A model generated the notes under the pieces. It did no database searches. It saw only the letters and a program-made list of their open reading frames with translations, and was not told the DNA's origin. From a virus, in the IMG/VR virus record IMGVR_UViG_3300030329_006602, positions 1 to 64,000 of that record: a DNA stretch of 64,000 nucleotides. The stretch is one strand, 5' to 3'. This document shows, in pieces, positions 4,832 to 59,274 of this stretch (positions are counted from its first letter, which is position 1; every line of letters starts with the position of its first letter). The position numbers and the translations under genes were made by a program.

Positions 4832-4834
4832 TAA

Positions 4835-18012: not shown

Positions 18013-18416
<404 letters not shown>

Positions 18417-36600: not shown

Positions 36601-36625
36601 ATATCGTCCACTGCTGCTGGGTTTT
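36601..36625. repeat. 25-bp repeat, copy 2 (copy 1 at 858)
   Basis: Matches 858-882 at 23 of 25 positions. Here it overlaps the stop codon of fcl and lies 80 nt before the fibre-like gene. Confidence 0.5.
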
Positions 36626-37583: not shown

Positions 37584-38616
37584 TGGAAAGGAGTTCGTGG
37601 TCTCTTCTGTACATTTTACTTACTAACTCCTTGAAGTTTGTTTTTCTCTTCCATCCCAGTTCATTTTCTGCCCTAGATGGGTCCCCGCAAAGTTCGTGCA
37701 CTTCAGCTGGCCTGTAAAACTTTGGGTCCACTTCAAATATTAGCTCCTGAGTGTGTGAGTCGAAGAGTTTTTCCTGCTCTCCGTGTCCCGTGGAATAAAA
37801 GGTTATTTTTGCGGCGTCGAGAGATAATTCCAGAAACTCTCTCACTGTGTGCATTTCTCCACTAGCCAGTACATAATTCTCTGGATCTTTTTTCTGATTA
37901 AGCATTAGCCAGACGCCCTCCATAAAATCTTCCGCGTCACTCCAATCTCTCTGGGCCTCAAGGTTCCCGAGGGTAAGTACTGGAATCTTCGTCTCGCGTT
38001 CTAGCGCTAGTTTTATTTTAGCTACACCGTTAGTGATTTTTCGGGTAACAAAATCAAGCCCTCTTCTTACGCCTTCGTGGTTAAAGAGCCATCCTTGAAC
38101 TGCATACAATCCATATGATTCTTTATAGACTCTTACAATGTGGCGAGCGGCGCACTTTGCGGCACCATATGGAGATTGGGGTCTAAGAGGGTGATCCTCG
38201 TCCTGGGGCGAGCTAATAACATCCCCGAACTCTTCGGAAGATCCCGCGTTGTAAAACCTACAGTTGGGAGCAAAGCGCCTAATGGACTCCAGTATATGTA
38301 GTACGGCATCAGAGTCGGTCACCCAGGTTTGAATAGGATAATCCCAACTCCCCGCCACAAACGATTGGGCCGCAAAATTAATAAAGTAATCTGGCTGGTG
38401 TTCGATTATAACATCCCTGATACTATGTGCATCGTTGAGGTCCATGTTTAGGAGTTTAAAGCGGGGTTCTCCTTCGAGGTGGAGAATGTTTTCGTGGTTT
38501 TTTACGCTGAGTCGTCGAACTGTGCCAAATATTTGGTGGTCGGTATGGGCTAATAGATAGTCAACCATGTGACTACCGTCTTGTCCTGTTACTCCTGTTA
38601 CTATAATTTTTTTCAC
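37576..38616 (-). CDS. gmd: GDP-mannose 4,6-dehydratase, 346 aa
   Basis: Converts GDP-D-mannose to GDP-4-keto-6-deoxymannose. TGVTGQDGSH is the NADP-binding loop with the family-specific QDG. SSEEFGD and YGAAK supply the catalytic residues, and FNHEGVRRGLDFVTRKI matches the family FNHE...RRG-FVTRKI element. The start is set to GTG at 38616, which overlaps the rmlB stop as GTGA. An 18-codon extension lies inside rmlB. GDP-mannose itself is presumably taken from the host. Confidence 0.95.
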   Translation of the reverse strand: MKKIIVTGVTGQDGSHMVDYLLAHTDHQIFGTVRRLSVKNHENILHLEGEPRFKLLNMDLNDAHSIRDVIIEHQPDYFINFAAQSFVAGSWDYPIQTWVTDSDAVLHILESIRRFAPNCRFYNAGSSEEFGDVISSPQDEDHPLRPQSPYGAAKCAARHIVRVYKESYGLYAVQGWLFNHEGVRRGLDFVTRKITNGVAKIKLALERETKIPVLTLGNLEAQRDWSDAEDFMEGVWLMLNQKKDPENYVLASGEMHTVREFLELSLDAAKITFYSTGHGEQEKLFDSHTQELIFEVDPKFYRPAEVHELCGDPSRAENELGWKRKTNFKELVSKMYRRDHELLSNG

Positions 38617-39551
38617 TTTTCTAGAATTAATTGTTTGAGGCCTGTGGAGAACTGTATACGTGGAGACCAACCCAACTGGGCCTTGATCTTTGTGTTGTCT
38701 ATGGCGTACCTCCAGTCATGTCCTAATCTGTCCTTTACAAATTGTATTTGATTTTCGCCTTTTTTCAATAAAGAAAGTATGTTTTTTACAATGTCCACAT
38801 TTCTTACTTCATTGTCTCCTCCTATGTTATAGACTTCTCCAGCTTCTCCCCTGTGTAGTACCTCATCTATTGCAGAGCAATGATCTAGAACATGTATCCA
38901 GTCTCTGATATTACGGCCATCCCCGTAAACTGGAAGCTTATTCCCAGCCTTTGCATTCTTAATCATTAAGGGGATTAGCTTTTCCTCGTGTTGGTTTGGT
39001 CCATAATTATTTGAGCATCGAGTGAGTAGAATTGGATACTTAAAGGTTTCATAAAAGCTTCGACATAGTAGGTCTGCCGCAGCCTTGCTGGCGGAATAGG
39101 GGCTGTTGGGTTGGAGGGGCGTGTTTTCGGTAAAAGGTGAATCTCCCTCTTTTAAGCTTCCGTAGACTTCATCTGTCGATACCTGTAAGTATCTTTTTAT
39201 GGTTGAACAGTCGTGTAACAGGTTTAATAGGGAATGTGTGCCGTTTATGTTTGTCTTTATGAACGGCCCTGAGTCCTTGATGCTGTTGTCAACATGGCTT
39301 TCTGCAGCAAAATGAACAATAAGGTTTATGTTGTTGTCTTTTACGAGCTTTTTGATAACTTCGTGGTCGTTAATGTCGCATTTAACGAAATTGTATCTTT
39401 TGCTTTTTTTAATTTCCTCGCTTAGTCGGTCGAGGCTGGCTGCGTAGGTGAGGGAGTCTATGTTCCAAATATTATAATTATACTTTTGGAATATATGGGT
39501 GATGAAATTACTCCCAATGAAGCCGTAGCCGCCTGTAACTAATAGATTCAT
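38613..39551 (-). CDS. rmlB: dTDP-glucose 4,6-dehydratase-like protein, 312 aa
   Basis: Makes the 4-keto-6-deoxy intermediate of dTDP-sugars. The protein has VTGGYGFIGSNF, HFAAESHVDNSI, STDEVYGS near residue 125 and YSASKAAADLL near 155, then TRCSNNYGPNQHEEKLIP, all close to RmlB. The length is slightly below average but complete. The start overlaps the cytidylyltransferase gene by 4 nt. RmlA is not in the window, so dTDP-glucose must come from the host or another phage gene. Confidence 0.92.
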   Translation of the reverse strand: MNLLVTGGYGFIGSNFITHIFQKYNYNIWNIDSLTYAASLDRLSEEIKKSKRYNFVKCDINDHEVIKKLVKDNNINLIVHFAAESHVDNSIKDSGPFIKTNINGTHSLLNLLHDCSTIKRYLQVSTDEVYGSLKEGDSPFTENTPLQPNSPYSASKAAADLLCRSFYETFKYPILLTRCSNNYGPNQHEEKLIPLMIKNAKAGNKLPVYGDGRNIRDWIHVLDHCSAIDEVLHRGEAGEVYNIGGDNEVRNVDIVKNILSLLKKGENQIQFVKDRLGHDWRYAIDNTKIKAQLGWSPRIQFSTGLKQLILEK

Positions 39552-39985
39552 TTATTCTGGGATATCTCGGGGTTTTGTTTTAGGGTCTGGATAGTAATAA
39601 GATCTTTTAGGCGCGTTGTAGACCATTCGTGAGATCGAGTGGTGTAGATTACCTTTGGGGGTAAATCATCCCCAGTGAAACTCCTTCCTATGTAGTCTTC
39701 TCCTAAGATTCTTATGTCGGGCTTCCAGAATTTAATGAGATTAATTAATTCCTCTTCTGTTTGGTACATATATACGTCGTCAATGTATCTGATCGCCATT
39801 AGAGTCTTGTATCGTTCGTAATAGGGAATTACGGGCTTGTATTTAGTATATCTTGTTTCCGACGGGTCTCGTTGTAAAAATACAAAGAATTTGTCGCAGT
39901 GGCGCTTGGCCTCTTCAAAGGTATAAATGTAGCCTGGGTGAAGTAAGTCAAAGTTTCCAGCCGTGAAGCCAATTGTTTCTTTCAT
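39548..39985 (-). CDS. Cytidylyltransferase-like protein, 145 aa, HxGY variant
   Basis: TagD/GCT-type nucleotidyltransferases join CTP to glycerol-phosphate or similar. The first motif reads GNFDLLHPGYIY, so the HxGH signature has Tyr in place of the second, catalytic His. Later SRFT-like RSHEWSTTRLK resembles the RTxGISTT region. Length is normal for the family. It overlaps both the 861-aa fusion gene and rmlB by 4 nt. A second HxGY protein exists at 57.1 kb, so the variant is not a sequencing error. Substrate unknown. Confidence 0.8.
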   Translation of the reverse strand: MKETIGFTAGNFDLLHPGYIYTFEEAKRHCDKFFVFLQRDPSETRYTKYKPVIPYYERYKTLMAIRYIDDVYMYQTEEELINLIKFWKPDIRILGEDYIGRSFTGDDLPPKVIYTTRSHEWSTTRLKDLITIQTLKQNPEISQNK

Positions 39986-42567
39986 AAATTATTAATTGTG
40001 AAGTCCTCATATTGTAAGTCTTTGATGTTAATAAACTCAATACCGCTATCAATTAAGTCTTTATTGTGTTTTTTAATTTCGTCAGCAAAGTTCCATGCTA
40101 ATATAATCACCTTCATATTGGTTCCATTAATTTCAGTTTTAGGTTTAATTGGGATATTTGTTCCTGGCACAATTTTATTATGTTTTAATTTATTGTCCTC
40201 AACAATAAAGTCAATATCATTGACTGTTATACCGTAATAATTTAAAGCTGTTGTTGCCTTAGCTGGTGAAGCATAACCAATTAATGTGTTACCTTCGTCT
40301 TTAAGTCGTTTGATATTTTTAATTACATTGGCTTTACAATCTTGAACTCTTTTACCAAAGTCTTTATATGTCTGATACTCTGTTAACCCAAATTCTTCTT
40401 CATTTATTAGGAAAGTGTTAACATTTTCTGTGGACACCACTCTATGATGATTGCCAACATAAACACGAATTGAACCTCCATGAGTATCAATATGTTCGAC
40501 ATCATATACCTTAACACCTAAACTATCAAGGAATCGAACTATCGATGTTACTGACCAATAGTTAACGTGTTCATGATAAATGTTATCAAACGTCAAATCC
40601 TTAATAGTGTCTAATAAATATTGAACCTCAATCACAAATGTTCCTGTGTCTTTTAATAGTTTAAACACATTTTTTGTGATACCTTTTAAGTCATCTGCGT
40701 GTGCAAATACATTAGAAGCAGTTACTAAATCGGCAGTACCATCTAGCCCTTTAAATGTATTTTCATCAAAGTAGCTGTTAATTGTTGGGATTCCATTATC
40801 AGTAGCTATTTCTGATACATTAGTGGCGGGTTCTACTCCGATTACCTTAATGCCTTTATCCTGCAATGGCTTTAAAGCAATTCCATCATTTGAACCTATA
40901 TCTACAACTAATGATTTTTCATCTAGTTTGAATTTGTCTATATACTTGGTGGCGGCATCTTCAAAATGTTTTCTAAATGATGACGAAGTAGATGAGACAT
41001 ATAGATAGTTGTCAAACATTTTACCTGGAGGAACTACATAGCTTAGTTGAGAGTTATGACACTCGGAACAATAATCCATTTCTAGTGGGAACTTCTCAAA
41101 AGAATCGTCTTTGAAGTCTAATAAGTTGTTGGCCATTGGTGACTTACCTAATGATATAACTTTCTTCATATGAATGTTACCACAACACCTGCATTCCGTT
41201 TTGTATCCATCAATAAGTTGTTTCCTGAAATCCTCATCAACAAGTATATCCCTAATTGTGTGTGTGATTCCATAATTCTCATGTTCTCTTTCGCCCCTAA
41301 CAAGGTTTAAGAAAATAGAATCTTCTAAGAATACCATTGCATGTGAAACATTAGGCCTTATAACTGCAATGTCACCCTCTTTTATCAATCTGGTTTCGAT
41401 AACCGAATTTGGGTCAGCTAAATCTTTAACAACGCTAATATATTTACCTTTAATCAGTAGACATTTTTGCTCTTGTATGGGATGGTAATGATTCGCTCTA
41501 ACTGTACCCTCTTTGGACTCAATATAACCAATTAAATTAATCGGTTCAGTTAATTCAAAATTAGATATTTTACCCCTCTCATCAATATATTCTTTGCCTC
41601 CTCTAATTATGTATTCCAAATCTTCTGGTTCTTCTTTGCGGGACCAATTAGTAATCATTTCTTCAATGCACCCTTTAAGGTCGTACCTAAATTCAAAACC
41701 AGTGTCTAGTAATTTTTTATTTGATATTGTATAGCCTAAGTTTGGTATTTCATCATCCGTTTCCTTAATTTTTAATTTTGGATTTATTTTCTTACAGATA
41801 TCTGCAACTTCTTTAACGGTCGTATTCTCTTTTGACAAATGAAAAATTTCATTATTTATGCCGCTTTCGGCCATAAATTTAAAGCATCTTGCAACGTCAA
41901 CGAGGGGCACTAAACTTTTCAGTTGTATCCCCCCAGAAAATAATTTTATTGTGCCGTCTTGGGAGGCTATTTTTGAAAAAAGATTTGGCATGATCCCTGT
42001 GCGCATGGTGTCGGTTGAGTAGCCGTAAACAGATGCCAGCCTTAGTATAACGTAATTATTGCCAGAATTTTGCAAATCTTTTTCAGATTGTACTTTTCCA
42101 GATGAATAAGTTAGGACAGGGCACGGGGGCACGTCTTCTGCTAGGTTGGTTTTGGTCTCCTTAAATCCTTCATAGACCACATGGGTGGACGGGAAGAGGA
42201 TTTTTGAATTTTTATTAGCGTACTTAATAATATTTTTAGTGCCCTGAACTCCAGTACGTGTTATGGCTTGATCCTTTTCGGTATCCGCATCTGTTGCGGT
42301 ATATGCGACGTCAGTTATGCCAGCTAAATGTATGATGATATCAGCTTGGGCGAGTTCTTGTTTTAGGATGTCTTCTTCTAATATTGAAGATTCTATAAAT
42401 CTAATGCCCCAGTCTCTTAATTGCTTAACTCTTTCAGAAATAAATCTAGAATCTATTACAACAATATCTTTATATCTAGCTTCGCCCGAGTACAATTTAC
42501 ACAACTCCGTTCCAACGTAACCCAGGCCACCAGTGATGACAATTTTTTGTATTGTATTGTTTTTCAT
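39982..42567 (-). CDS. Three-part fusion: NAD-epimerase, cupin, C-methyltransferase (861 aa)
   Basis: Residues about 1-305 form an extended SDR domain (TGGLGYVGTELCKL, HLAGITDVAYT, FPSTHVVYEG, YSSGK). Residues 325-445 form a cupin of the sugar 3,4-isomerase/epimerase kind (RANHYHPIQEQKCLLIKGKY, VIRPNVSHAMVF). Residues 453-860 are a TylC3-type C-methyltransferase with a CRCCG/CSECH zinc site, SAM loop VVDIGSNDGIALKPL, HEHVNYWS and the GGSIRVYV C-terminal domain. One polypeptide could thus do several steps of a branched deoxysugar. The coding DNA turns more AT-rich after the first domain. Confidence 0.88.
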   Translation of the reverse strand: MKNNTIQKIVITGGLGYVGTELCKLYSGEARYKDIVVIDSRFISERVKQLRDWGIRFIESSILEEDILKQELAQADIIIHLAGITDVAYTATDADTEKDQAITRTGVQGTKNIIKYANKNSKILFPSTHVVYEGFKETKTNLAEDVPPCPVLTYSSGKVQSEKDLQNSGNNYVILRLASVYGYSTDTMRTGIMPNLFSKIASQDGTIKLFSGGIQLKSLVPLVDVARCFKFMAESGINNEIFHLSKENTTVKEVADICKKINPKLKIKETDDEIPNLGYTISNKKLLDTGFEFRYDLKGCIEEMITNWSRKEEPEDLEYIIRGGKEYIDERGKISNFELTEPINLIGYIESKEGTVRANHYHPIQEQKCLLIKGKYISVVKDLADPNSVIETRLIKEGDIAVIRPNVSHAMVFLEDSIFLNLVRGEREHENYGITHTIRDILVDEDFRKQLIDGYKTECRCCGNIHMKKVISLGKSPMANNLLDFKDDSFEKFPLEMDYCSECHNSQLSYVVPPGKMFDNYLYVSSTSSSFRKHFEDAATKYIDKFKLDEKSLVVDIGSNDGIALKPLQDKGIKVIGVEPATNVSEIATDNGIPTINSYFDENTFKGLDGTADLVTASNVFAHADDLKGITKNVFKLLKDTGTFVIEVQYLLDTIKDLTFDNIYHEHVNYWSVTSIVRFLDSLGVKVYDVEHIDTHGGSIRVYVGNHHRVVSTENVNTFLINEEEFGLTEYQTYKDFGKRVQDCKANVIKNIKRLKDEGNTLIGYASPAKATTALNYYGITVNDIDFIVEDNKLKHNKIVPGTNIPIKPKTEINGTNMKVIILAWNFADEIKKHNKDLIDSGIEFINIKDLQYEDFTINNL

Positions 42568-43606: not shown

Positions 43607-44548
43607 TTATTCAATTTTTATATTATTTTTATATGTATTTAGATTGTGCATCCTATAGTAGTCTTCAGCTTCTTTTTTGCAAGTATTATAATCTGAAATG
43701 GCCCCTTCTCTATCTATGTACTCAAAGGATGTTGTATAACTGTCGGCGTGAGACCAATATCCATCGCTTAAATTGTGTGATATGAAATATTTGGGCCCAA
43801 TAGTTTTGTGACAATATTGATTCAGCCATGCGCCCCACCAGGAGAAGGAAGAATTTGAGATTATAAGCCATTTGGCCTGGTTGACGACGTAAAAATCAAA
43901 GCCTATATCCACGTGAATGGCCTGTATGTCAAAGGGCATAAAACTTTTAGCGCAATTTATGTCATCAGTTATAATTAAAAATTTCATATCTTTATTTGCT
44001 TGTAGCATATGGCTTATGGAGTCCCGCCAGTACTCTTTTCTTGGAATTACGTTGTGAAGATTTTTATATTCTCCACCCCTAAAATTAATAATGCAGAGGT
44101 TGTCGTCTAGGCTGATCCCCAGGTCTTTTAATTTTTTTTTGTAGCCATCTTTGTATTCTTTTTTTATTTTAAACCATTTTAAGATAGAGGGTTTGTTGTC
44201 AATAATGTAATCTTCGCATTGGTAAATTCCGCCGAGAGCGCCGTTATCACCCAGGAGTATAGTATTATCCTCAATATCATATATTCGATCATCTAACCTA
44301 TTGAACCAAACCTTTTCCTGTTTAGCTTTATGAAATTGCCACTTTTCATGAAAATGGTGAGTTATGCCCGCAACGGATTTACCAAAATCCGCATCCATAA
44401 ATGTCATTTGGCTCTTACCTTGGTGATAGTCGTGAGAAGGTGTTGGGCTTATCCCCCAATCGTAACCTAGTTTTTCTGCAATAGTTCTACACACAGAATA
44501 TTGCCACATGTGATTACCTAAATTACCTGTTAAATTTATTGTTATCAT
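43607..44548 (-). CDS. GT11 (alpha-1,2-fucosyltransferase-like) protein, 313 aa, divergent donor motif
   Basis: The N-terminal GNLGNHMWQYSVCR and C-terminal IISNSSFSWWGAWLN are GT11 signatures. The GDP-fucose motif, normally HxRRGDY, reads NFRGGEY here, so Arg and Asp positions differ from the two other GT11 copies and donor choice may have changed. It overlaps the DUF5672 gene by 4 nt. It stands with GT17 and two DUF5672 genes in an AT-rich part of the cluster. Confidence 0.88.
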   Translation of the reverse strand: MITINLTGNLGNHMWQYSVCRTIAEKLGYDWGISPTPSHDYHQGKSQMTFMDADFGKSVAGITHHFHEKWQFHKAKQEKVWFNRLDDRIYDIEDNTILLGDNGALGGIYQCEDYIIDNKPSILKWFKIKKEYKDGYKKKLKDLGISLDDNLCIINFRGGEYKNLHNVIPRKEYWRDSISHMLQANKDMKFLIITDDINCAKSFMPFDIQAIHVDIGFDFYVVNQAKWLIISNSSFSWWGAWLNQYCHKTIGPKYFISHNLSDGYWSHADSYTTSFEYIDREGAISDYNTCKKEAEDYYRMHNLNTYKNNIKIE

Positions 44549-48998: not shown

Positions 48999-49544
48999 TT
49001 AAAATGGGCTTTGGAAGTCCTCTAGTGACGGATGCATGGTATCTTTATGGGATATAATTGGAGCCTCGCACGTTCCCCAATGGATATTTATGGTGGGGTC
49101 ATTCCACCTGATTCCTCCTTCGGATTCCTTGTTGTAGAGTGCAGAGCACTTGTATTGTACTATAGTGTTGTTTTCCAGCGTTAGAAAACCATGAGCAAAT
49201 CCATCGGGAATGTAGAGCATTTTTTTATTTTGGGCCGACAAAATATGGCTGGAGTATTCTCCATAAGTCTTTGAATCTTTTCTAATGTCCACCGCCACAT
49301 CTAATATTGACCCATGGATCGCTCTAACTAATTTAGCTTGAGAATAAGGAGGGGATTGGAAATGAAGCCCTCTTAATACCCCTTTTTGGGAGAGGGATTG
49401 ATTGTCTTGAAGGAAGTCGGCCGTAATTCCTAGGTCGTGGAATTTTTGCTTATTAAAGGATTCAAAAAAATATCCTCGAGAGTCCTCCAGGACATTGGGC
49501 TCAATTAGGGCTAGGTCTTCTATGTGAGTTTTAATTTTTTTCAT
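48999..49544 (-). CDS. rmlC: dTDP-4-dehydrorhamnose 3,5-epimerase family protein, 181 aa
   Basis: A cupin enzyme that epimerises 4-keto-6-deoxy sugars. Family motifs are present: EPNVLEDSRGYFFESFN near residue 14, FLQDNQSLSQKGVLRGLHFQ (catalytic His in LRGLHFQ), VDIRKDSKTYGEY, IPDGFAHGFLTLE near 130 and IRWNDPTINIHWG near 150. The length is standard. It overlaps the RfbH-type gene by 14 nt. Another cupin domain of a different kind lies in the 861-aa fusion. Confidence 0.93.
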   Translation of the reverse strand: MKKIKTHIEDLALIEPNVLEDSRGYFFESFNKQKFHDLGITADFLQDNQSLSQKGVLRGLHFQSPPYSQAKLVRAIHGSILDVAVDIRKDSKTYGEYSSHILSAQNKKMLYIPDGFAHGFLTLENNTIVQYKCSALYNKESEGGIRWNDPTINIHWGTCEAPIISHKDTMHPSLEDFQSPF

Positions 49545-50838
49545 GATTAGTAAAGAACTCTTGTATTTGTTTAATGATGTAGTCTATCATCTTTTTTGTC
49601 AAGGTGGGTGAGCACCCGAGGAAGAATACTTTGTCTAGTACGCGGTTGGAGTGGGGGTATTTAGTGTAATCGTCTAAATGTTTATAGGCGGGGTGAATGA
49701 GAATGTTTCCCGCGAAGTAATTTCGTGTTTGGATTTTACATTTTTCGAGGTGCGATACTAGTGCGTCTTTTATTTTTTTATTTTTACAAACTATGGGAAC
49801 CCCAAACCAACTGGTGTGCGCGGCAGGCAATTCATCAACGGTATTGACGTCAGCGAGAGGTTTAAGCGCCTTATCTATCGCTTGCTTGTTGGCCCTGCGC
49901 TTTTTATGAATTTCGCTAAATTTTTCCAGTTGAACGCAACCTAGTGCTCCCTGTAGGTCCAGGGGCTTTAGGTTGTATCCCATATTAGTGAAGATATATT
50001 TGTGGTCCACTATCCCTGAGTACTCCTCTAGCCACTTGTCAAACCTATTTCCGCATGTACCGCACGCAGATAAATTGGCCATTCCAACGCAATAACAATC
50101 CCTACCCCACCACGCCAAGCTTCTTGCGGTTTTAACTATGTGTGGGTTATTAGAGGAAACCATTCCTCCTTCTGCCGTGCATATATGATGTGCAGGATAA
50201 AAAGAGCATGAGGAAGCAATAACGTATTCATTTAGATATTTTCCTTCCCATTGAGATCCAAGTGAATCACAGTTATCAAGAATTAATTCTAGGTTGTATT
50301 TGTTTTTTAGATCTAAAAGCTTATTGAAGTCAGGGGGGTTTGCTAAGACAGGGGAGATGAATATAGCTTTGGTTTTTGGTGTTATTTTCTTTTCCACCTC
50401 CTCTAGATCAAAGTTTAAGGTTTTAAATTCAATATCCGCAAAGACAGGCTGTAGATTGTGTTGGTAAATCGGGGCGATGGTAGTAGGAAACCCCACTGGG
50501 GAAACTATAATCTCGTCCCCATCCCTCCAGTTCAGTACTTTTTTAATCGCCCCCACCATAACTAGATTGGCGGAACTGCCAGAGTTTACCATTACGGACT
50601 GCGCTTGCTTAAATTTTTTGGAGAATTGAATCTCAAATCTATGAACAGCCTCCCCAGAAGATAGCCACTTACCTGCGAGCACCGAATTTAAGATGGTCTC
50701 AACCTCACTTTCGTCCCAGTAGGGACCTGAGTAGTAAATGGGAGACCGTCCTGGAGTAAATTCCTTTTTATTGTGAAGGTAGGGGGGTGTTATCTCCGAG
50801 GTGAGTTGAGAAATAATTTTACTTAGCTGTTCTGACAT
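49531..50838 (-). CDS. RfbH/E1-type [2Fe-2S] PLP dehydratase, 435 aa
   Basis: E1 enzymes remove the C3 hydroxyl of a CDP-4-keto-6-deoxy sugar, leading to 3,6-dideoxyhexoses. The aminotransferase-fold protein has His in place of the PLP Lys (SFYPAHHICTAEGG near residue 213), the hallmark of E1. Cysteines follow C-X57-C-X-C-X8-C, almost identical to the published E1 cluster motif C-X57-C-X-C-X7-C. No E3 reductase gene is seen in the window. The product could be an abequose- or paratose-like sugar. The Fe-S carrier at 4.8 kb might load its cluster. Confidence 0.9.
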   Translation of the reverse strand: MSEQLSKIISQLTSEITPPYLHNKKEFTPGRSPIYYSGPYWDESEVETILNSVLAGKWLSSGEAVHRFEIQFSKKFKQAQSVMVNSGSSANLVMVGAIKKVLNWRDGDEIIVSPVGFPTTIAPIYQHNLQPVFADIEFKTLNFDLEEVEKKITPKTKAIFISPVLANPPDFNKLLDLKNKYNLELILDNCDSLGSQWEGKYLNEYVIASSCSFYPAHHICTAEGGMVSSNNPHIVKTARSLAWWGRDCYCVGMANLSACGTCGNRFDKWLEEYSGIVDHKYIFTNMGYNLKPLDLQGALGCVQLEKFSEIHKKRRANKQAIDKALKPLADVNTVDELPAAHTSWFGVPIVCKNKKIKDALVSHLEKCKIQTRNYFAGNILIHPAYKHLDDYTKYPHSNRVLDKVFFLGCSPTLTKKMIDYIIKQIQEFFTNHEKN

Positions 50839-51569: not shown

Positions 51570-52304
51570 TTATAGTCTCCAACTAGAGTCTGGAGTGGGG
51601 GGTTGGGGGGTTGGTTGGTAGATGCTCTGAATCAGGTAGTGACCCTGGTCTTTATTTATGCCGTAGGCAGTGGTTAAAGTGGGCTCTTTATTTACTTCTA
51701 CATGGGGATAAGAAGAAAGGGGTTCGTCGGTTCCTAGGGAACTAGATTGGTAGAAGGGGGGCTTGTCGAAAGCATAAATGTTAAAATAGCGATGGATTTC
51801 TGCATAACCTATATCGAGGTGATTTGCTATTTTCATCCAGTGTTCGGCTACTCGGGCGCACATGTCTACATAGTCTTGGCTAATGAAGAGCATTGCGTGG
51901 GTGCTGAGCATATTAAATATCCTTAATAAATTTTCGTTGATTTTTTGTAGGTGAACGAAGGGTCCCGATCTTCCATCTAGTCTGCCCCACGAGGAGTTTC
52001 CTAGGTAGACCGCATCTGCGTCGTCGGGGAATTCGATAATTGGTCGAAAGTTTTTTTCCGTAGCGTCGTCTTCTAAAATAATGAAGGGGGGAGTATTGTT
52101 TTCCATTAGGTGGAGGTGCGATGCTGCACACCCTTCTGCCGCCGCGGAATCGTGGGCAGTCATATTCGTTCCTTTTATCCCTTCGAAGCGTGAGTAGTTG
52201 GTGAAATTGAGTCGCGCCAGCATTTCCTCCATATTTTTGCGCTTGTCCGAGGCTGTCGCCATATTAATGTAATGGACAGGTATGTCTCTAAGATCTAATT
52301 TCAT
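51570..52304 (-). CDS. GT25-family glycosyltransferase (beta-1,4-galactosyltransferase-like), 244 aa
   Basis: GT25 includes bacterial LOS galactosyltransferases such as LgtB/LgtE. The start VHYINMATASDKRKNMEEML and GCAASHLHLMENN near residue 58 are family landmarks. FIILEDDA near 73 is the metal motif, and VYLGNSSWG and THAMLFISQDY follow. It overlaps the GT6 gene by 17 nt. In animals and Neisseria, beta-1,4-galactose is the acceptor to which blood-group fucose and Gal/GalNAc are added, making the order of genes here suggestive. Confidence 0.85.
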   Translation of the reverse strand: MKLDLRDIPVHYINMATASDKRKNMEEMLARLNFTNYSRFEGIKGTNMTAHDSAAAEGCAASHLHLMENNTPPFIILEDDATEKNFRPIIEFPDDADAVYLGNSSWGRLDGRSGPFVHLQKINENLLRIFNMLSTHAMLFISQDYVDMCARVAEHWMKIANHLDIGYAEIHRYFNIYAFDKPPFYQSSSLGTDEPLSSYPHVEVNKEPTLTTAYGINKDQGHYLIQSIYQPTPQPPTPDSSWRL

Positions 52305-52983
52305 GATGGTCTTTGTTTAATGCTAACAGTCGGCATTTGAAGGGGAGGGGGTGTCCCTCTCCAAAGCAGTATCCTGGATCGAGGGCTAGGGTGGGGGGAT
52401 TATCGATAAAATAGCGATTCATATGGCTCTCATCATGCCATAGAGCGATAATGTCGTTTTTAAAATCCGTGTCAATGTTGTCTGCGAGAACGCGGGCCAT
52501 TTTTAAATACTCACTCGCTGTACCTCCATTAAATCCTCCCGCCATGTAGTACGAGTAGGGAAAATCTTCATTCTCATGAATGCAGGCCAAGGATTCGGGT
52601 CGCGTTTCGGGGTCTCCTCTAGGTTTATATAAATAACAACCTGGATGAGCCGTACCCACTAAAGTGGAGAGAATTTCATCCCCTACTTTATCCTTAAAAA
52701 GCATGTCTGCATCACTATAGTAAAGGTAATCCATTTTGGATAGCTCCTCTTGGTAAGTGGTGAAAATCCTATATCTTCCCAGCGTCATCCAGGGCCATTC
52801 TTTGTGTTCTACTTTGAGTTTGACTACCTTTCTCTCGCTTTGGATTTCATCTTCTCTATCGGTAAAGAGGAAGTAAGTGACATCTTGGTCTTGGAGGAAA
52901 TGCTCGTCGGCGCTGCTGATTAGGTCTTGAGCAAACCTAATATATTTATTTGATGCAATAATTAAGAGTCCTACCTTATTCAT
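52288..52983 (-). CDS. GT6 family glycosyltransferase (ABO blood-group transferase family), 231 aa
   Basis: GT6 enzymes add alpha-1,3 Gal or GalNAc to galactose, often to Fuc-alpha-1,2-Gal. Signatures match the human A/B enzymes: YFLFTDRED, YYSDADMLFKDKVGDEIL with an intact DXD, GTAHPGCYL, a MAGGFNGG acceptor loop and IALWHDESHMNRYF, whose Glu is catalytic. Bacterial GT6 proteins mostly have NXN instead of DXD, so this one is of the metal-dependent type. There is no membrane anchor. The ATG at 52983 overlaps the GT11 stop as ATGA. The donor cannot be read safely, though a Gly in the specificity loop would suit GalNAc. Confidence 0.92.
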   Translation of the reverse strand: MNKVGLLIIASNKYIRFAQDLISSADEHFLQDQDVTYFLFTDREDEIQSERKVVKLKVEHKEWPWMTLGRYRIFTTYQEELSKMDYLYYSDADMLFKDKVGDEILSTLVGTAHPGCYLYKPRGDPETRPESLACIHENEDFPYSYYMAGGFNGGTASEYLKMARVLADNIDTDFKNDIIALWHDESHMNRYFIDNPPTLALDPGYCFGEGHPLPFKCRLLALNKDHHEIRS

Positions 52984-53948
52984 GCAATTTCCCACCCTTC
53001 AGGAATTAAATCATTTAGATAGTTTTGGGGATTTAGCGTCGACTTCTGCGCGTAACCTTCGCTAAACCAAAGCTTGGGGGCAATTACTCTTTTATTTTTA
53101 TTGGGGTTTAGCCATGCTCCCCACCAGCTAAACGACGAATTAGAAATCACGTGATCTTGACACCGAGACATTAAGATCATTTCCGTGAAATCGCTTTCTA
53201 GGTTAAGGTGCGCCCTTTTCTCGAAGTCTGGATGGGTTTGGTCCTTCTCTTCTTCGGTGTGCCCCCTTTCTGAAATGAAAGTGGCGTTGTCTAGAACGAG
53301 ATTATTTTTACACCAGTCTAGATCGTCTGAAAAAACTAAAACATGATCGGGCTTGAGGCGATCCAATGCACTTTGGTAGTAGTCTAGGGATTGTGTGGGG
53401 TGGGGATTATCAGGGTGTGATTCTTCTAACTTGACGTAATCCCCTCTTCTCACGTGCAAGGAGGCGTAGCGTTGGGCTTGGTCCAGTCTGTATTTGCTGT
53501 CTATGTAATCTGTGATGGTTTTTTTTGGTTGAAACAACTTGCGGATTACGGCTGTTGACCGCTGGAAATATTTTTCACTTTGAAAGTAGCCGTCAAGATT
53601 TATTAGTTGAGTCGGGTCTATTAAGGTATCTCGATCCAGGTGCTGTGGATAAATATTGGGCAGATGACCCCCTTTGGACTCCGCTAAGTTTAGTAGTTTT
53701 TGATTGTTAGGTAAATAGGTTTCTCCCGTTTCGGGGTTTATACCCTTCCATAAGGCGGAAATTATTTCATCATTCAAGGTTCTCCAGTTCTCTCCGTTGT
53801 GAAATAGTCTTGAAGGTGCGGTCCACACGCGAGGAAAAAGAACGTCGGTATTCAAGGAGTGGGATAGTCCTATGGCGGCAGCCGCTTGAAAAAGCTGATT
53901 TCCCAGGCGTCCGTTCCTTCCTATGTTGAGATTTGTTAGTACTGCCAT
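52980..53948 (-). CDS. GT11 alpha-1,2-fucosyltransferase, canonical, 322 aa
   Basis: All GT11 marks are intact: GRLGNQLFQAAAAIGL, HVRRGDYVKLEE near residue 147, and VISNSSFSWWGAWLNPNK near 270. The HxRRGDY motif binds GDP-fucose. The product is expected to be Fuc-alpha-1,2-Gal, the H antigen, which is the natural acceptor of GT6 enzymes. The GT6 gene follows with a 4-nt overlap. The next upstream gene ends 1 nt before. This is the best-preserved of the three GT11 genes in the window. Confidence 0.95.
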   Translation of the reverse strand: MAVLTNLNIGRNGRLGNQLFQAAAAIGLSHSLNTDVLFPRVWTAPSRLFHNGENWRTLNDEIISALWKGINPETGETYLPNNQKLLNLAESKGGHLPNIYPQHLDRDTLIDPTQLINLDGYFQSEKYFQRSTAVIRKLFQPKKTITDYIDSKYRLDQAQRYASLHVRRGDYVKLEESHPDNPHPTQSLDYYQSALDRLKPDHVLVFSDDLDWCKNNLVLDNATFISERGHTEEEKDQTHPDFEKRAHLNLESDFTEMILMSRCQDHVISNSSFSWWGAWLNPNKNKRVIAPKLWFSEGYAQKSTLNPQNYLNDLIPEGWEIA

Positions 53949-53949
53949 A

Positions 53950-54873
53950 TTATTTATTATATTTGTGCAGATAGGGCTGTTGAGCGTAGTAGGTTCTTAT
54001 GTGGTCCTGCCTCATTTTCATAAAATTAAGATAGAGTATTGTGTTGTTGATATATTCTATGTTCTCTATGGCTGAATCCGCCAGTCTTTCATGCTCTAGG
54101 TGATATACCGCCCCCTGGTCTAGGTGGGCCACTTTTGCCCCAAGAGCCTTAAATCTGAAGTAGCGTTCCTTGTCTTCGGGGCCCCACGAGATGAAGTTTT
54201 CGTTTTCCATTCCGAAGGCGCGGTATGCGTTGGTATTGATGAACTGACAATGCCCTGCGAAAGATTCATCGTTGGTTACTATGTCTATTAGTGTGGTGAT
54301 ATCGGCCCCTGTTTCTAATTTCTTTTTAAGGAGTTTTCTTATATCTTGGGTTATTTTCTTCTGTGAAAAGCCCAGCTCAAAGGGGTAGACCATGTCTAGG
54401 TTTTCTTCTCGTAATTTGGCGGCGGCCGTTATGTATGACTGTAGTGGAAGGAGGATGTCCGCGTCGTAATTTACTGTAATAGGCGTCTCTACCTTGGCTA
54501 GCATTTCATTGAGCATTCGCGTGCGGTGAAATGGTTTTGTCGAAAGATTTAATTTCTCCAACTCGGAGGCTTTATTGAACTGCCGCCATTGTTCTTGGTA
54601 GTTCATGTATTCCTCACTACCTTCTTTTACGTAGCCGCTTTCAAAGTAATAATTGACGCGCGGGTGATTTTGTATAGAATCGGGGACAAGGGGAACTTCT
54701 TCTAGCGGTGAGGTGGCGGTTTCTTTACTAAGCTGTCCCATTTCATGTATAATGAATTTGCAGTCAAAATTATTGGAGAGGTATCCGAAGCTTATTTCTA
54801 GATTATCTAGACGGTCCGCGCTTTCTATCTTAATCGGGATTATGAATGTAACGTCTTGAAGCTGATCGATCAT
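53950..54873 (-). CDS. GT-A glycosyltransferase with GT7-like C-terminus, 307 aa
   Basis: The N-terminal GT2-like half contains VTFIIPIKIES and TVNYDADILLPL near residue 135 with DAD. The C-terminal half shows GHCQFINTNAYRAFG and FISWGPEDKERYFRFKALG, the galactosyltransferase GT7-type W-G-x-ED signature, followed by VYHLEHER. This two-part layout occurs in chondroitin polymerase-like and beta-4-galactosyl transferases. It overlaps its upstream neighbour by 4 nt. It is probably a Gal or GalNAc transferase. Confidence 0.8.
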   Translation of the reverse strand: MIDQLQDVTFIIPIKIESADRLDNLEISFGYLSNNFDCKFIIHEMGQLSKETATSPLEEVPLVPDSIQNHPRVNYYFESGYVKEGSEEYMNYQEQWRQFNKASELEKLNLSTKPFHRTRMLNEMLAKVETPITVNYDADILLPLQSYITAAAKLREENLDMVYPFELGFSQKKITQDIRKLLKKKLETGADITTLIDIVTNDESFAGHCQFINTNAYRAFGMENENFISWGPEDKERYFRFKALGAKVAHLDQGAVYHLEHERLADSAIENIEYINNTILYLNFMKMRQDHIRTYYAQQPYLHKYNK

Positions 54874-55586
54874 GCTAGTTTATAGTCTCTCGATAGGATA
54901 TTAAACTCTTGGGAAAGTTTTTGCAATTTTAATTTATTCTGTTCCTCTGTAAGCGCAGGGGATTCGGGGATCCCCCAGTTTGACCCCCTTATAAAGTGAA
55001 ACATTTTAGTATCTAATATCTCGTGGAATCTATCGGTTCCTTGATGTCGGTGTTCTTGCTTTATTCCCCTTACTTCCCTTTGCCCTAGGCGCTCTATATG
55101 GTGGTGTAATTGTCCCCCCGTGTCCGTCGACTCTCCCTTGATATGGGTGGGGAGAAAATCCATCTGGGGTATTTTGTTTAAATCTATATTTATATATGCA
55201 GGGCACATGTAGGAGATTTTTCCTCTGTGTTGTAGTAGTCCTTCTAGTGCATAATTACTTTCTATGTGAAATTTTTTAAAGGGAATAACGTCGTGGTCTA
55301 GTATGAGGAGTCTATTGAATCCTCTTTTCTTTATCTCCCTAAAACCCTCGTTCAGGGCTGGAGCGTGGCTAAAGCTTCCGCAAGCATGTTGATAGTTTGT
55401 TTTGGCAAAGGTGGCTTGGTACTCCTGGGTAGTATGAAGGATTTCGTTACTAATGCTTGATTTCTCTGGAGGAGTGTTATCTATAATTAGAATTTCTACA
55501 GGATCGACACAGAGATTTTGTATGCGATTCAGTTGGTGTTCAATAAAGAAAGAGGTACTGTGGGTGACTATGACTACCGCATTCAT
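54870..55586 (-). CDS. GT2-like glycosyltransferase, 238 aa
   Basis: The start MNAVVIVTHSTSFFIEHQL at 55586 overlaps the epimerase stop as ATGA. A 17-residue extension further up is inside that gene. EILIIDNTPP, then CGSFSHAPALNEGF and LLILDHDVIPFKKF (HDV at the DXD position) mark the GT-A fold. SNWGIPESPAL near the end may contact the acceptor. The family is less clear than for its neighbours. Cytoplasmic, donor unknown. Confidence 0.7.
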   Translation of the reverse strand: MNAVVIVTHSTSFFIEHQLNRIQNLCVDPVEILIIDNTPPEKSSISNEILHTTQEYQATFAKTNYQHACGSFSHAPALNEGFREIKKRGFNRLLILDHDVIPFKKFHIESNYALEGLLQHRGKISYMCPAYINIDLNKIPQMDFLPTHIKGESTDTGGQLHHHIERLGQREVRGIKQEHRHQGTDRFHEILDTKMFHFIRGSNWGIPESPALTEEQNKLKLQKLSQEFNILSRDYKLA

Positions 55587-56476
55587 GTGGGTTTGTTTTC
55601 TTTTATCCAATCTAGAATATCTATCTGTGGACTCCACTTTAGGATCTTTTTTGCTTTGGAGATATCTGCCAAGGTAAATTTAGGCTCAATGCGGGGCTCT
55701 ATATATTTTCGTTTTTTGGAAACGAGATCGCAGAGGTCATTGAGAGAGTTATTGGTCCCCGACCCAATGTTGAAAAAGCTGTGTCCACTCGTGGAAACTG
55801 TAGCGGCCTGGAGGTTGGCTCGCGCCACATCTCTTACGTTTATAAAATCTCTGCTGTTGTTTCCGTCTCCCGTGAGAGTAGGTAATTCTCCAGCTACCAA
55901 CTGGCGAAACCAAATCCCCACCACGGGAACATATGCCCCCTGTAGAGGTTGACGCTCGCCATAAACATTAAAGTATCTCAATGATACGCTATTTAGTCCA
56001 TATAGTGTATGAAATAGGTCTAGATATTGCTCGCCAAACAATTTTTGTAACCCATATGGACTCAGGGGGTGGGGAGTCGCTCTTTCTGATATCTTTCTTG
56101 GGGGGACATCTCCGTAGATAGAGGAGGAGGAGCTGAAAATTACTTTCTTAACTTTCGCCTCTTTTGCCGCAAAGAATACATTGAGTGACCCCTTCGTGTT
56201 GATTTCATCTGAAGGGAGGGGGTTCTGGATGGAGGGTTCTACTCGCGGTAGTGCGGCTAAATGGAAAACATAGTCTACTCCCTTGAAGATATGCTCGACG
56301 CGCTTAAAGTTACGGATGTCCTCTATATAATATGTTGCGTCTCGATTCGCGTTCTCCTTGGATCCAGTAGAGAGGTCGTCTATTACTGAAACCTCATGAC
56401 CTTCTTCGACTAGGAGGTCAACTACGTTGCTTCCAATGAAACCGAGGCCTCCTGTTACTAGTGATTTTATTTTCAT
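55583..56476 (-). CDS. UDP-hexose 4-epimerase-like SDR protein, 297 aa
   Basis: The protein has VTGGLGFIGSNVVDLL, VIDDLSTGSKEN (typical of GalE/WbpP-like UDP-sugar epimerases), HLAALPRVEPSIQNP, FSSSSSIYGD and YGLQKLFGE, plus RYFNVYGERQ. Substrates of this group are UDP-Glc/Gal or UDP-GlcNAc/GalNAc. That would supply the donors for the GT25, GT7-like and GT6 enzymes encoded just downstream. It is slightly short at the C-terminus, ending in DWIKENKPT. It overlaps both neighbours by 4 nt. Confidence 0.88.
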   Translation of the reverse strand: MKIKSLVTGGLGFIGSNVVDLLVEEGHEVSVIDDLSTGSKENANRDATYYIEDIRNFKRVEHIFKGVDYVFHLAALPRVEPSIQNPLPSDEINTKGSLNVFFAAKEAKVKKVIFSSSSSIYGDVPPRKISERATPHPLSPYGLQKLFGEQYLDLFHTLYGLNSVSLRYFNVYGERQPLQGAYVPVVGIWFRQLVAGELPTLTGDGNNSRDFINVRDVARANLQAATVSTSGHSFFNIGSGTNNSLNDLCDLVSKKRKYIEPRIEPKFTLADISKAKKILKWSPQIDILDWIKENKPT

Positions 56477-57132
56477 TGGGACTTTTTAGGGATGCAGATT
56501 AATAATTTATCTTTTCTGGTTAAATTACTGAATAATTCATCTCCCCACGGCCACGAGGCGCGACCCTCCTCGGTTGCTTCCTCAGTTAAATGAAGATGAT
56601 AGGATGATAGGGCGTTATGCTGTTTAAAAATTTTTAAGAGTCGTGTTTCCGCGAAATCCTGATTTACGTCATCGACTATTATGGGATGATTAGGAACGGT
56701 ATGTGTGAGAATGGTGTGTAGTTCGTTTTCGATGATTTCCTCGAGGCTATACTCCTCCCCACCACTTCCTTCCCCACTGTGATGCGCGTCAAGAAAAAAT
56801 ACTGTGGGAGTAGTGATATTTTGAAGAATTTCAGGCAAAACTTCCTGGGATGGTCCGATGTGTAAGTCGATATCAGGCTCTTCCCATTCGGGGGCCTGTT
56901 CTTTAGCAGCGGTAATCTGGCTCGGTAGATACTGTGAGTTGTATGCTTGGCGGTCTTCCTGTAACTCTATAGAGTGGATTTTTTTAAAGTGGGTATGAAG
57001 GGAAAGAAGGAAGATAATGGTCCTAGCCTTATCGGTCCCTGTTTCCACAAAGATATCTGGGCTCAGCCCCTCTAAGAACTCATGGAGGTCTCCCTCTTTT
57101 TTGAATCCAAAATTTTTATAGGGTATGGTCAT
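56473..57132 (-). CDS. Methyltransferase-like protein, 219 aa
   Basis: The fold suggests a class I SAM enzyme: DIFVETGTDKARTIIFLLSL near residue 29, HSIELQEDRQAYN, and VFFLDAHHSGEGSGGEEYSLEEI near 112, with IIVDDVNQD later. The motif I is weaker (VETGT) than usual, so binding of SAM is likely but not proved. Related proteins occur in marine phage and bacterial sugar clusters. Four-base overlaps on both sides. Confidence 0.65.
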   Translation of the reverse strand: MTIPYKNFGFKKEGDLHEFLEGLSPDIFVETGTDKARTIIFLLSLHTHFKKIHSIELQEDRQAYNSQYLPSQITAAKEQAPEWEEPDIDLHIGPSQEVLPEILQNITTPTVFFLDAHHSGEGSGGEEYSLEEIIENELHTILTHTVPNHPIIVDDVNQDFAETRLLKIFKQHNALSSYHLHLTEEATEEGRASWPWGDELFSNLTRKDKLLICIPKKSQ

Positions 57133-57833
57133 AGTGATTTCTTTATTTTTTCCTTGAGTGCGGTTGTGGATCTATCGTGGTTTCTTCCGTGGAAGTATAC
57201 CTCCATCCCTAAATTTTCCCCCGTGAATTTTTGGCCGCGATAGTCGGATCCCAGGATGCGGAGGTGTGCACCTGAGTTCTTTAATAAATCATAAAGATCT
57301 TGTTCGCGATCATAGGTTTGAATTTCATCAATGTATTTGATTGATTCGAGAATAAGTTTTCTATCCTCCAAGCTTTGGACGGGACTGGTCTTGTATGGCC
57401 TCTCCACACTCGAGTCTTCTTGCAGCGCGACGATTAAGTGGTCGCAAACCCGTTTGGCATCTTGAAACATGTAGATGTATCCCGCATGTATAAGATCAAA
57501 GGAGCCTGCTAGGATACCTATTTTTTTATTTAGCTTTCTTCTGAAGTCATCTATATGCATTGCCTTGTCGTCGATGTAGATGTCGGCCCCTAGTTTTTTG
57601 CCAACGCATAACTGGTGGTATTTGATTCCCCATTTCTCCATTTGTTCATGGGTAAATTCTCTCCAGTCTATCCCCGAGCTATATCCCCGAGCGGTAGCTA
57701 AACGGATAGTGTGTCCCTCTGCGTGGAGCTTATTGATTTCATCCACGACATCGGGAAAGGGTTCCGCTATTGTGTAATCGTGCTCAGCATTCGTACTGCA
57801 AATGGTTCCATCTATATCAAAACAATAAATCAT
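57129..57833 (-). CDS. Fusion of HAD phosphatase and cytidylyltransferase-like domain, 234 aa
   Basis: Residues 1-105 are a HAD phosphatase (FDIDGTICST with DxDxT, LATARGYSSG, ADIYIDDKA), like capsule/heptose phosphatases. Residues 108-234 are a nucleotidyltransferase (GILAGSFDLIHAGYIYMF, RPYKTSPVQSLEDR, GRNHDRSTTALKEK). The HxGH motif is HAGY, as in the 39.5-kb protein. Fusing phosphatase and nucleotidyl transfer would join the last two steps of activated heptose synthesis. The isomerase and kinase genes precede it with 4-nt overlaps. Confidence 0.83.
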   Translation of the reverse strand: MIYCFDIDGTICSTNAEHDYTIAEPFPDVVDEINKLHAEGHTIRLATARGYSSGIDWREFTHEQMEKWGIKYHQLCVGKKLGADIYIDDKAMHIDDFRRKLNKKIGILAGSFDLIHAGYIYMFQDAKRVCDHLIVALQEDSSVERPYKTSPVQSLEDRKLILESIKYIDEIQTYDREQDLYDLLKNSGAHLRILGSDYRGQKFTGENLGMEVYFHGRNHDRSTTALKEKIKKSL

Positions 57834-58324
57834 AGTACTGAATGTAAAAAGGTTTCGTGTGCGATTTCAACCACCCCATAGTCTTCTGAGTCTACCCAGT
57901 ATTCCATTTTTGCAAGAGGGGCAAACTTCCTTAAGAGGTTATTTTGTTTAAAGCCTGTTAGGATTAACATATCCAGGTTGTTGTTTTTACAGTGCGACGC
58001 ACAGTTTACTATGTTGAGGGATTCTCCTGATGAGGAGATGAGAATATGAAGGGTTTGGCTGGTGGAGAAGTCTTTAATAAACTCCACGTAGGCCTGCTCT
58101 CCGTAATCATTGAAGTAGCACGTTAGGCGGGGCCCATCCCCAAAGGCGAGAGCTCGTTTCTTTAGGACTTTTGAGTAATCCTCCGCAATGTGAAGGCAGG
58201 TAGCATTACTTCCGCCGTTCCCTAAGAGGATAACATCTTTATATCCCTGTAGCAGCCTGTTAAGTCTATCGCTATACATACAGTTTATTTTCTGAACCTC
58301 GGTGGATAGCTCGAATAAATTCAT
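57830..58324 (-). CDS. SIS-domain sugar isomerase, GmhA-like, 164 aa
   Basis: GmhA turns sedoheptulose-7-phosphate into D-glycero-manno-heptose-7-phosphate. The protein has VILLGNGGSNATCLHIAEDYSK near residue 32, where GNGGS contacts phosphate, and LHILISSSGESLNIVNCASHC near 90, then LTGF. The C-terminal EIAHETFLHSVL keeps the Glu and His of the family. It is shorter than GmhA by about 25 residues. Placement between a GHMP kinase and a HAD-cytidylyltransferase fusion supports a heptose route. Confidence 0.85.
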   Translation of the reverse strand: MNLFELSTEVQKINCMYSDRLNRLLQGYKDVILLGNGGSNATCLHIAEDYSKVLKKRALAFGDGPRLTCYFNDYGEQAYVEFIKDFSTSQTLHILISSSGESLNIVNCASHCKNNNLDMLILTGFKQNNLLRKFAPLAKMEYWVDSEDYGVVEIAHETFLHSVL

Positions 58325-59274
58325 AGTTTTTTTACGTGGGCGCCTTTGTGGGAGATATTAATTTTTACGCAGTGATTTTCTAGGTTATTTTGGCTTGGGA
58401 TCCAAGAGGGTTTTGTAAAAATTAAAAAGAATCCTCCGTTGCCCGCCCCACATAGTCTATGCCCTAAGATATTTGGGGACTCGGAGAGGGTGGCGTTTAA
58501 TTCTTGTACCCGAGGGTGTTTTATTATTTCAGGGCACGATTCTACTTTTTTTACCCATCCCTCGTTGATAATTTCAATAAGAGCGCTTAGGTTGTTCTCT
58601 TGTAGGGCTTTTTCGGCCTCATCGACAAGAGACAATAGCCTCCTGCATTTTTCGATATCTACCTTTTTCAAGAGTTTAGTAGAGGAGCGATACACGCCCG
58701 TATGACAGAGAAACATATTAGCCTCGTTGAGGGTGGCTGGATTGAGCTGAGTTATGGAAACCGTAGAGGGTTTTTTGATAGTAATTTTTTTTAACCCTTT
58801 TATTCCACAGCCATAAGGATCCTGGTATCCTGTAAGTGGATTAAATTTCCTTTCGAGCATAAGGGCTAATTGGCAAATTTTTTCGTTTGCCAGAGTTGTT
58901 CTGTTTTTGTGAATACAGGCCTTAATAAAGGCGATGAGGTAAGACGAGGAGGAGGCGAGCCCTGAGCCGCTAGAAAAGATATCAGCCGTAAGAGAACTGG
59001 TATTGGGATTAATATTAAAGTGGGAGAAGCACTCTCTTACTATGTCATTTTTTATTTCTTGTATGGTGTCGCACTCTTCTCTGGTGGAGTAATTGATGAT
59101 ATACTTGTTGTCTACCGAGCTTAATCCAAAGAGATCCTCGTTGATGGTGGCGTAAGTGTAAATGTCTGCTGCAAAATTGATTACCCTACCCTCTCCATAT
59201 TTATCTATAAATTCTTGAAGATCGGTGGCGCCTCCCACTAGGGAAATTCGCAATGGACATTTAGACACAATCAT
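58321..59274 (-). CDS. GHMP-family sugar kinase, HddA-like, 317 aa
   Basis: The start KCPLRISLVGGATDLQEFIDKYG is the usual opening of D-glycero-manno-heptose-7-phosphate 1-kinases and related GHMP enzymes. The ATP loop is DIFSSGSGLASSSSYLIAFIKA near residue 107 and the C-terminal motif is LCGAGNGGFFLIF near 280. YQDPYGCGIKG (residues about 165) is conserved in HddA. It is the first of three heptose-type genes in sequence. Product likely a heptose 1,7-bisphosphate, consumed by the next gene products. Confidence 0.87.
   Translation of the reverse strand: MIVSKCPLRISLVGGATDLQEFIDKYGEGRVINFAADIYTYATINEDLFGLSSVDNKYIINYSTREECDTIQEIKNDIVRECFSHFNINPNTSSLTADIFSSGSGLASSSSYLIAFIKACIHKNRTTLANEKICQLALMLERKFNPLTGYQDPYGCGIKGLKKITIKKPSTVSITQLNPATLNEANMFLCHTGVYRSSTKLLKKVDIEKCRRLLSLVDEAEKALQENNLSALIEIINEGWVKKVESCPEIIKHPRVQELNATLSESPNILGHRLCGAGNGGFFLIFTKPSWIPSQNNLENHCVKINISHKGAHVKKL

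Follow-up and report, generated by a model that had tools for sequence, protein, structure and literature searches.

A recurrent phage glycosyltransferase cassette that may build a blood-group A-like glycan tip

Can a phage carry what it takes to finish a glycan with a blood-group ABH-type tip? The question is raised by IMGVR_UViG_3300030329_006602, a virus record of 76,331 bp whose first 64 kb are the stretch analyzed here (the window). The record encodes a phage replication set (primase, DnaB, UvsX, PhoH, exonuclease and ribonucleotide reductase) that adjoins a large island of sugar genes. Within the island, a cassette at 51,570–56,476 includes genes of glycosyltransferase families 6 and 11 (GT6 and GT11). 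An initial annotation proposed that this cassette makes an A/B-like glycan with GDP-fucose supplied by gmd and fcl. Its open reading frames (ORFs) lie where that annotation placed them, all on the minus strand. From the sequences and the structural models, we judge the chances to be evenly balanced that GT11 acts first and GT6 second, with an A-type product favored and a virion protein as the preferred target. The likelihoods given here and below are judgements, and the rival explanations overlap in part. The features on which the argument turns are as follows, with N-acetylgalactosamine abbreviated GalNAc and galactose Gal.

52288–52983, minus strand: GT6 (ABO/BoGT6a family), candidate alpha-1,3-GalNAc/Gal transferase; likely start ATG at 52983, with a GTG at 52995
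52980–53948, minus strand: GT11, alpha-1,2-fucosyltransferase family; PF01531 at 82 bits, E 4.5e-23; motifs HVRRGDY and SNSSFSWWGAWL
37576–38670, minus strand: gmd, GDP-mannose 4,6-dehydratase; TIGR01472 at 317 bits, cut-off 415
36624–37583, minus strand: fcl, GDP-L-fucose synthase; NF047922 at 448 bits, cut-off 500
22272–60610, minus strand: the whole glycan-building island, about 38 genes, delimited by Pfam and hydropathy scans

The GT6 ORF (52288–52995) matched the Pfam profile PF03414 at 141 bits (E 3.7e-41, cut-off 25) over profile positions 76–312 of 313. In phmmer searches its best solved relatives were BoGT6a (3e-44) and human GTA/GTB (from 5e-35). An AlphaFold2 model built from 40 related proteins (predicted local distance difference test score, pLDDT, 94) superimposed on BoGT6a bound to UDP-GalNAc with a template modeling (TM) score of 0.93 and on human GTA with 0.90. 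This is the GT-A fold match that comparison with the human enzyme had been proposed to reveal. The protein carries DAD and WHDESH, the latter containing the catalytic Glu (E303 of GTA, E192 of BoGT6a), and the catalytic Glu and both Asp residues of the DXD motif are invariant across 42 phage GT6s. Profile and motifs together bear out the earlier assignment to the ABO family.

We compared 18 BoGT6a positions with the phage enzyme, namely the UDP-GalNAc/GalNAc contacts listed in PMC3961637 that fall within the alignment, together with those of the donor loop and the NXN motif. Fourteen are identical, including Y13, W66, T70, R73, H122, A155–G157, W189–E192 and K231. The remaining four are N95 and N97, both replaced by Asp in the DAD motif, N69, replaced by Met, and T134. 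BoGT6a, from Bacteroides ovatus, is the closest solved structure, but it has an NXN motif and is metal-independent (PMC3961637). Because the phage GT6 has DAD, as the vertebrate enzymes do, we predict that it is metal-dependent.

In the GT11 protein encoded at 52980, both family motifs (HxRRGDY and SNSSFSWWGA) can be read directly, and the Pfam match agrees with its earlier description as a canonical GT11. By identity its nearest relative is a GT6-linked GT11 from another viral locus (L006, 41%); a phmmer search of the PDB returned no match. The gmd and fcl genes are clear family members by sequence, though slightly below the equivalog thresholds. They lie about 13 kb from the GT6 cassette and, as the initial annotation had it, on the same strand. 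Matches of the key genes have E-values from 1e-20 to 1e-134, which excludes chance.

If the two transferases act on one glycan, they should travel together. When 2.9 million viral contigs were searched with the window GT6, 114 relatives emerged, and the 80 best were carried forward. GT11 was present above its curated cut-off in 71 of these 80 records, always on the GT6 strand and in 62 cases within 6 kb; five of the nine records without it are fragments shorter than 16 kb. As a control we used 50 viral records picked by RfbH, another glycan gene of the window. GT11 occurred above its cut-off in 29 of them (58%) and GT6 in two, both of which also had GT11. Set against the 27 of 48 GT6-free controls that carry GT11, the 71/80 gives a Fisher p of 6e-5, uncorrected for relatedness, and the enrichment judged from these sequences is real but moderate. 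Because of the 58% base rate, we downgraded GT11 co-occurrence and moved weight to the sister phages and to two further genes of the cassette, a GT25-like gene and an epimerase. The remaining cassette genes are as follows, with N-acetylglucosamine abbreviated GlcNAc and glucose Glc.

51570–52304, minus strand: GT25-like glycosyltransferase, candidate beta-galactosyltransferase, directly downstream of GT6; PF01755
53950–54873, minus strand: GT7-like, WGPED motif, possible Gal/GalNAc transferase; PF02709 at 22.4 bits, cut-off 23
54870–55586, minus strand: unclassified, possible glycosyltransferase; a longer ORF extends to 55637, with an ATG at 55586
55583–56476, minus strand: UDP-sugar 4-epimerase, candidate UDP-GlcNAc/UDP-GalNAc (or UDP-Glc/Gal); PF01370 at 186 bits

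Dereplicated loci of at least 12 kb (45 GT6 loci, 27 RfbH-island controls) separated these genes more sharply. GT11 was near GT6 in 34/45 against 9/27 controls, a GT25-like gene was present in 29/45 against 0/27, and the epimerase in 31/45 against 1/27. Of the 80 loci, 21 have the full set of gmd, fcl, GT11, GT6, GT25-like gene and epimerase within about 6 kb of GT6. GT25-like relatives turned up as neighbors inside GT6 loci; searching viral contigs with the GT25-like protein alone, or with a GmhA-like protein of the island alone, confirmed no relative. GT6 was also found in 71 annotated phage records, and several Synechococcus phages have annotated GT6 and GT11 genes that are adjacent or near each other. 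Four loci (L031, L032, L047 and L048) each hold two GT6-like genes near one GT11, perhaps for two donors. Eighteen bacterial matches were not used to address origin: they come from metagenome-assembled contigs, many of them short, and may be viral themselves.

All window genes were compared with 80 kb of each of three sister records (G003, G005 and G006, carrying loci L192, L189 and L185). These are among the nearest GT6 carriers and share DnaB (55–62% identity), primase, UvsX and exonuclease with the window phage, and we regard them as its relatives because of these common replication genes. Their sugar loci comprise about 7–9 genes, and most other genes of the window island are absent. The only clear sugar-island counterparts in all three are gmd (74%, 58% and 58%), GT6 (56–60%) and GT11 (32–38%). 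The epimerase has a counterpart (43%) in one sister, and in one a GT25-family gene overlaps the end of GT6. Since GT11 and GT6 are kept while most of the rest is absent, they are the stable core of the lineage's glycan locus, with gmd travelling along. Taken together, the 71/80 co-occurrence and the sister-phage comparison support a functional link between GT11 and GT6.

In the pathway we propose, Gmd and Fcl would convert host GDP-mannose to GDP-L-fucose, and the GT25-like enzyme, or less probably the GT7-like protein, would place a beta-galactose. GT11 would put alpha-1,2-fucose on that galactose. With UDP-GalNAc supplied by the epimerase, a metal-dependent GT6 would then transfer alpha-1,3-GalNAc onto the fucosylated galactose, giving an A-type tip (a B-type tip being less likely). 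All steps would take place in the host cytoplasm, and the likeliest target would be a virion structural protein. With its roughly 38 genes, three GT11s among them, the island also encodes other sugar pathways, including deoxysugar and heptose routes, so an ABH-type tip would be at most part of the product. The rest of the island would build the remainder of a larger, lineage-variable glycan.

Our preference for a virion target follows from the lack of any obvious membrane export or polymerization step in the island. Neither Pfam nor a simple hydropathy scan found a flippase- or polymerase-like membrane protein in the island, where the sole hydrophobic protein comes from a 144-aa gene at 35436–35870, and no lipid-linked initiating enzyme was recognized there. 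Decoration in the cytoplasm would have a parallel in large eukaryotic viruses such as PBCV-1 (PMC4691112), and glycosylation of virion proteins is reported for mycobacteriophages in work cited in PMC12619734. In the main rival reading, the same A/B-like tip would be added to host surface glycans, either lipopolysaccharide (LPS) or capsule, and block superinfection or alter grazing. PMC7824862 and PMC9602691 take such a host-surface change as their reading of the 15-gene cluster of P-SSM2 and of S-SCSM1, and host machinery for export and ligation could be used. However, no initiating, flipping or polymerizing enzyme was recognized in the island, and a lytic phage without a long latent stage would gain little from remodeling its host's surface; we consider this reading somewhat unlikely.

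The identity of the transferred sugar is the next question. The GT6 donor loop reads M-A-G-G-F; its AGG is the same as in BoGT6a, whereas GTA has LGG and GTB has MGA. At the donor-specificity residues named in PMC4202792 (GTA 235, 266 and 268), the phage enzyme has Gly at the 235 position and Ala at 266, where human GTA has Leu. BoGT6a makes the A antigen from UDP-GalNAc and 2'-fucosyllactose (PMC3961637). The epimerase gene, called a UDP-hexose 4-epimerase from the start, has the PF01370 match listed above, and its best solved relatives are 6dnt, followed by 4zrm (a UDP-glucose 4-epimerase), WbpP and WbgU. We take 6dnt to be a UDP-GlcNAc 4-epimerase. The phage protein keeps WbpP residues S143, N195 and Q201 and has Thr in place of S306, positions that presumably set N-acetyl specificity. 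Because of the AGG motif, the Gly at the GTA-235 position and the UDP-GlcNAc-4-epimerase-like gene, the sequences favor UDP-GalNAc (A-type) over UDP-Gal (B-type) as the donor. It would be rather unlikely, in our estimate, for the steps to run in the same order with GT6 transferring galactose (or for another donor to be used) and the epimerase acting as a UDP-glucose 4-epimerase. That alternative can point to 4zrm as the second-best solved relative and to TIGR01179 (galE), which leads the NCBIfam matches at a score far short of its cut-off; set against it are the BoGT6a-like donor motif and the WbpP-like residues with a small residue (Thr) at 306.

Other observations weigh against the GT11-then-GT6 pathway itself. 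The frequency of GT11 in phage glycan islands without GT6, seen in the controls, makes co-occurrence alone a moderate argument; the window holds two other GT11s, and one GT11, HhFT2, makes alpha-1,3 links (PMC4202792). BoGT6a T134 falls in an alignment gap opposite an Asp of the window GT6, where near relatives have Thr, and residues ~119–150 of the window enzyme contain two- and three-residue insertions beside the active site, unlike its closest relatives. Fucose is dispensable for some GT6 members, alpha-1,3-galactosyltransferase among them (PMC4202792). In none of the three sisters was fcl recognized, despite the presence of gmd near GT11 and GT6; GDP-fucose there must rely on host Fcl, or gmd must serve another sugar. 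The AlphaFold2 model of the GT25-like protein (pLDDT 86) is nearest to Mimivirus R655, human COLGALT1 and a bacterial beta-1,4-galactosyltransferase, and the match is loose, with TM scores of only 0.45–0.5. Finally, no capsid or terminase gene was found in this fragmentary record, which makes the case for a virion target indirect.

Another rival has GT6 and GT11 working on different glycans, with GT6 transferring alpha-Gal or alpha-GalNAc to an unfucosylated acceptor, fucose used elsewhere by the three GT11s and no ABH motif made. The changed acceptor-side residue at the T134 position, the existence of fucose-independent GT6 enzymes and the frequency of GT11 without GT6 in the controls all speak for this. 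The other two GT11 genes bear on it as well.

43607–44548, minus strand: second GT11, outside the GT6 cassette; PF01531 at 30 bits
45219–45974, minus strand: third GT11, outside the GT6 cassette; PF01531 at 52 bits

Neither of these genes, nor the size of the whole island (about 22–60 kb), figured in the initial annotation. In a quick tree, both cluster with GT11s of RfbH phages (Shimodaira–Hasegawa-like approximate likelihood ratio test, SH-aLRT, 96–97; best identity 63%, for 43607). The cassette GT11 falls outside their clade on a long branch, its exact placement being unsure, and given that branch we used the tree only to place 43607 and 45219. The pattern is consistent with GT11 enzymes having two distinct roles, one of which alone is coupled to GT6. 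With the two extra GT11s in a different clade, GT11 present on the same strand in 71 of 80 GT6 records and all three sister phages keeping GT11 with GT6, we think it quite unlikely that the two enzymes serve separate glycans.

The pathway in which GT11 precedes GT6 can also be put in a stronger form. A widespread set of aquatic phages would build a true blood-group A determinant, GalNAc-alpha-1,3-(Fuc-alpha-1,2)-Gal-beta, on its own virion proteins by a self-contained cytoplasmic pathway. The GT25-like enzyme would start or extend the chain with galactose, on protein in the manner of COLGALT1, and gmd, GT11 and GT6 would be the stable core to which the rest is a variable extension. We judge all of this together to be quite unlikely.

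That the genes are bacterial and come from host or assembly contamination is, in spite of DUF1501 and HSP20 genes at the left end that look cellular, a negligible prospect, ruled out by sister-phage synteny (GT6, GT11 and gmd beside UvsX and DnaB homologs) and countered by the 71 annotated phage records with GT6. The left-end genes themselves (two DUF1501 genes and one HSP20 gene, 3491–6435, minus strand) are of usually cellular types and have distant homologs in sister record G006 at 44–49 kb.

Labels for the other cassette genes fared unevenly. The GT25-like gene had been called a beta-galactosyl type; its PF01755 match is above the cut-off (30.4 bits against 24) over a short stretch only, and with its loose fold match a beta-galactosyltransferase is plausible on sequence and model. 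For the GT7-like protein we did not accept the GT7 label, its PF02709 score being just under the cut-off; it matches phrog_15655 (function unassigned) at 228 bits and a phage "galactosyl transferase" family at 35.6 bits. Nor is "GT2-like" supported for the gene at 54870–55637, which had no match in Pfam or PHROG, although weak homologs (21–31% identity) occur in 16 GT6 loci. The cassette was said to have mostly 4-nt overlaps. Given ATG starts at 52983 and 55586, this is so at three junctions (GT6/GT11, GT7-like/unclassified and unclassified/epimerase); GT25-like and GT6 overlap by 17 nt, and GT11 and the GT7-like gene are separated by 1 nt.

The full set of donor and transferase genes was thought to be the new part, and here the initial annotation was mistaken. 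In Prochlorococcus phage P-SSM2 (PSSM2_257–271), a single 12-kb island holds all six gene types, with identities to the window genes of 41% (gmd), 49% (fcl), 38% (GT11), 45% (GT6), 50% (GT25-like) and 42% (epimerase). The 21 metagenomic loci counted above hold all six types as well. In both phages the GT25-like gene (gene 269 in P-SSM2) directly follows GT6. Gene order in P-SSM2 is different: there the epimerase lies downstream of the GT25-like gene and gmd-fcl close by, with a methyltransferase gene and an oxygenase gene interposed. The window island, larger by a factor of about three, likewise unites all six genes, with gmd-fcl ~13 kb from the rest. P-SSM2 is a cyanophage; the window DnaB had only remote matches among annotated phages (best 26%), and the best matches included no cyanophage relative. 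The gene set is thus recurrent in many phages, including one sequenced years ago, and is not a one-off.

Partial parallels exist elsewhere. By description, the Escherichia coli O86 O-antigen cluster resembles the window in having WbwK (GT11) then WbnI (GT6), which make a true blood-group B structure (PMC4202792), but it is bacterial and uses a B-type donor. Synechococcus phage S-SCSM1 is reported in PMC9602691 to carry gmd, fcl and an alpha-1,2-fucosyltransferase, read there as cell-wall modification. The chlorovirus PBCV-1 also encodes its own GMD and GMER, which provide GDP-fucose for a virus-made glycan (PMC4691112); it is a eukaryotic virus, however, and its transferases and glycan are unrelated. 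As of 2014, the known GT6 genes included two from cyanophages (PMC3961637). The literature found in an open-access search gave no function for those two genes and stated neither the coupling of these genes nor the A-type prediction.

The recurrent coupling of GT6 with GT11, GDP-fucose genes, a GT25-like gene and an epimerase yields a testable prediction, an ABH-like glycan on many aquatic phages. If this is true, histo-blood-group structures would have a viral source besides those in animals and bacteria, and a metal-dependent (DXD) phage GT6 would bear on the origin of the vertebrate and bacterial GT6 genes. The cassette also offers small, soluble candidate enzymes for A-type oligosaccharide synthesis.

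The remainder of the island is one long minus-strand run (~22–60.6 kb) of nearly all sugar genes, with ends mostly overlapping or abutting. RfbH (a 3-dehydrase, 49531–50838, minus strand) is very common in viral contigs, with 518 relatives in one scan; no CDP-glucose dehydratase was recognized in the island that bears it. RfbH, RmlB, RmlC and RmlD share the island with an 861-aa fusion (39982–42567, minus strand) of an SDR epimerase domain and a sugar C-methyltransferase (Methyltransf_13/14) whose middle part is without assignment, which suggests a branched or dideoxy sugar. At 57129–59274 (minus strand), a HAD–nucleotidyltransferase fusion, a GmhA-like isomerase and an HddA-like kinase form a candidate pathway to a nucleoside diphosphate (NDP)-heptose, and GmhA- and HddA-like genes are near GT6 in 6 of 45 other loci too. 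Two sulfotransferase-family genes (24707–25246 and 28821–29471, minus strand) also lie in the window, and sister phage G006 has one such gene between GT11 and GT6, so a sulfated glycan is possible. Outside the island, the window phage encodes a transfer-messenger RNA (tmRNA; 18015–18416, minus strand; Rfam RF00023, 122.6 bits) whose 33-residue tag is basic, unusually long and ends in LALAA.

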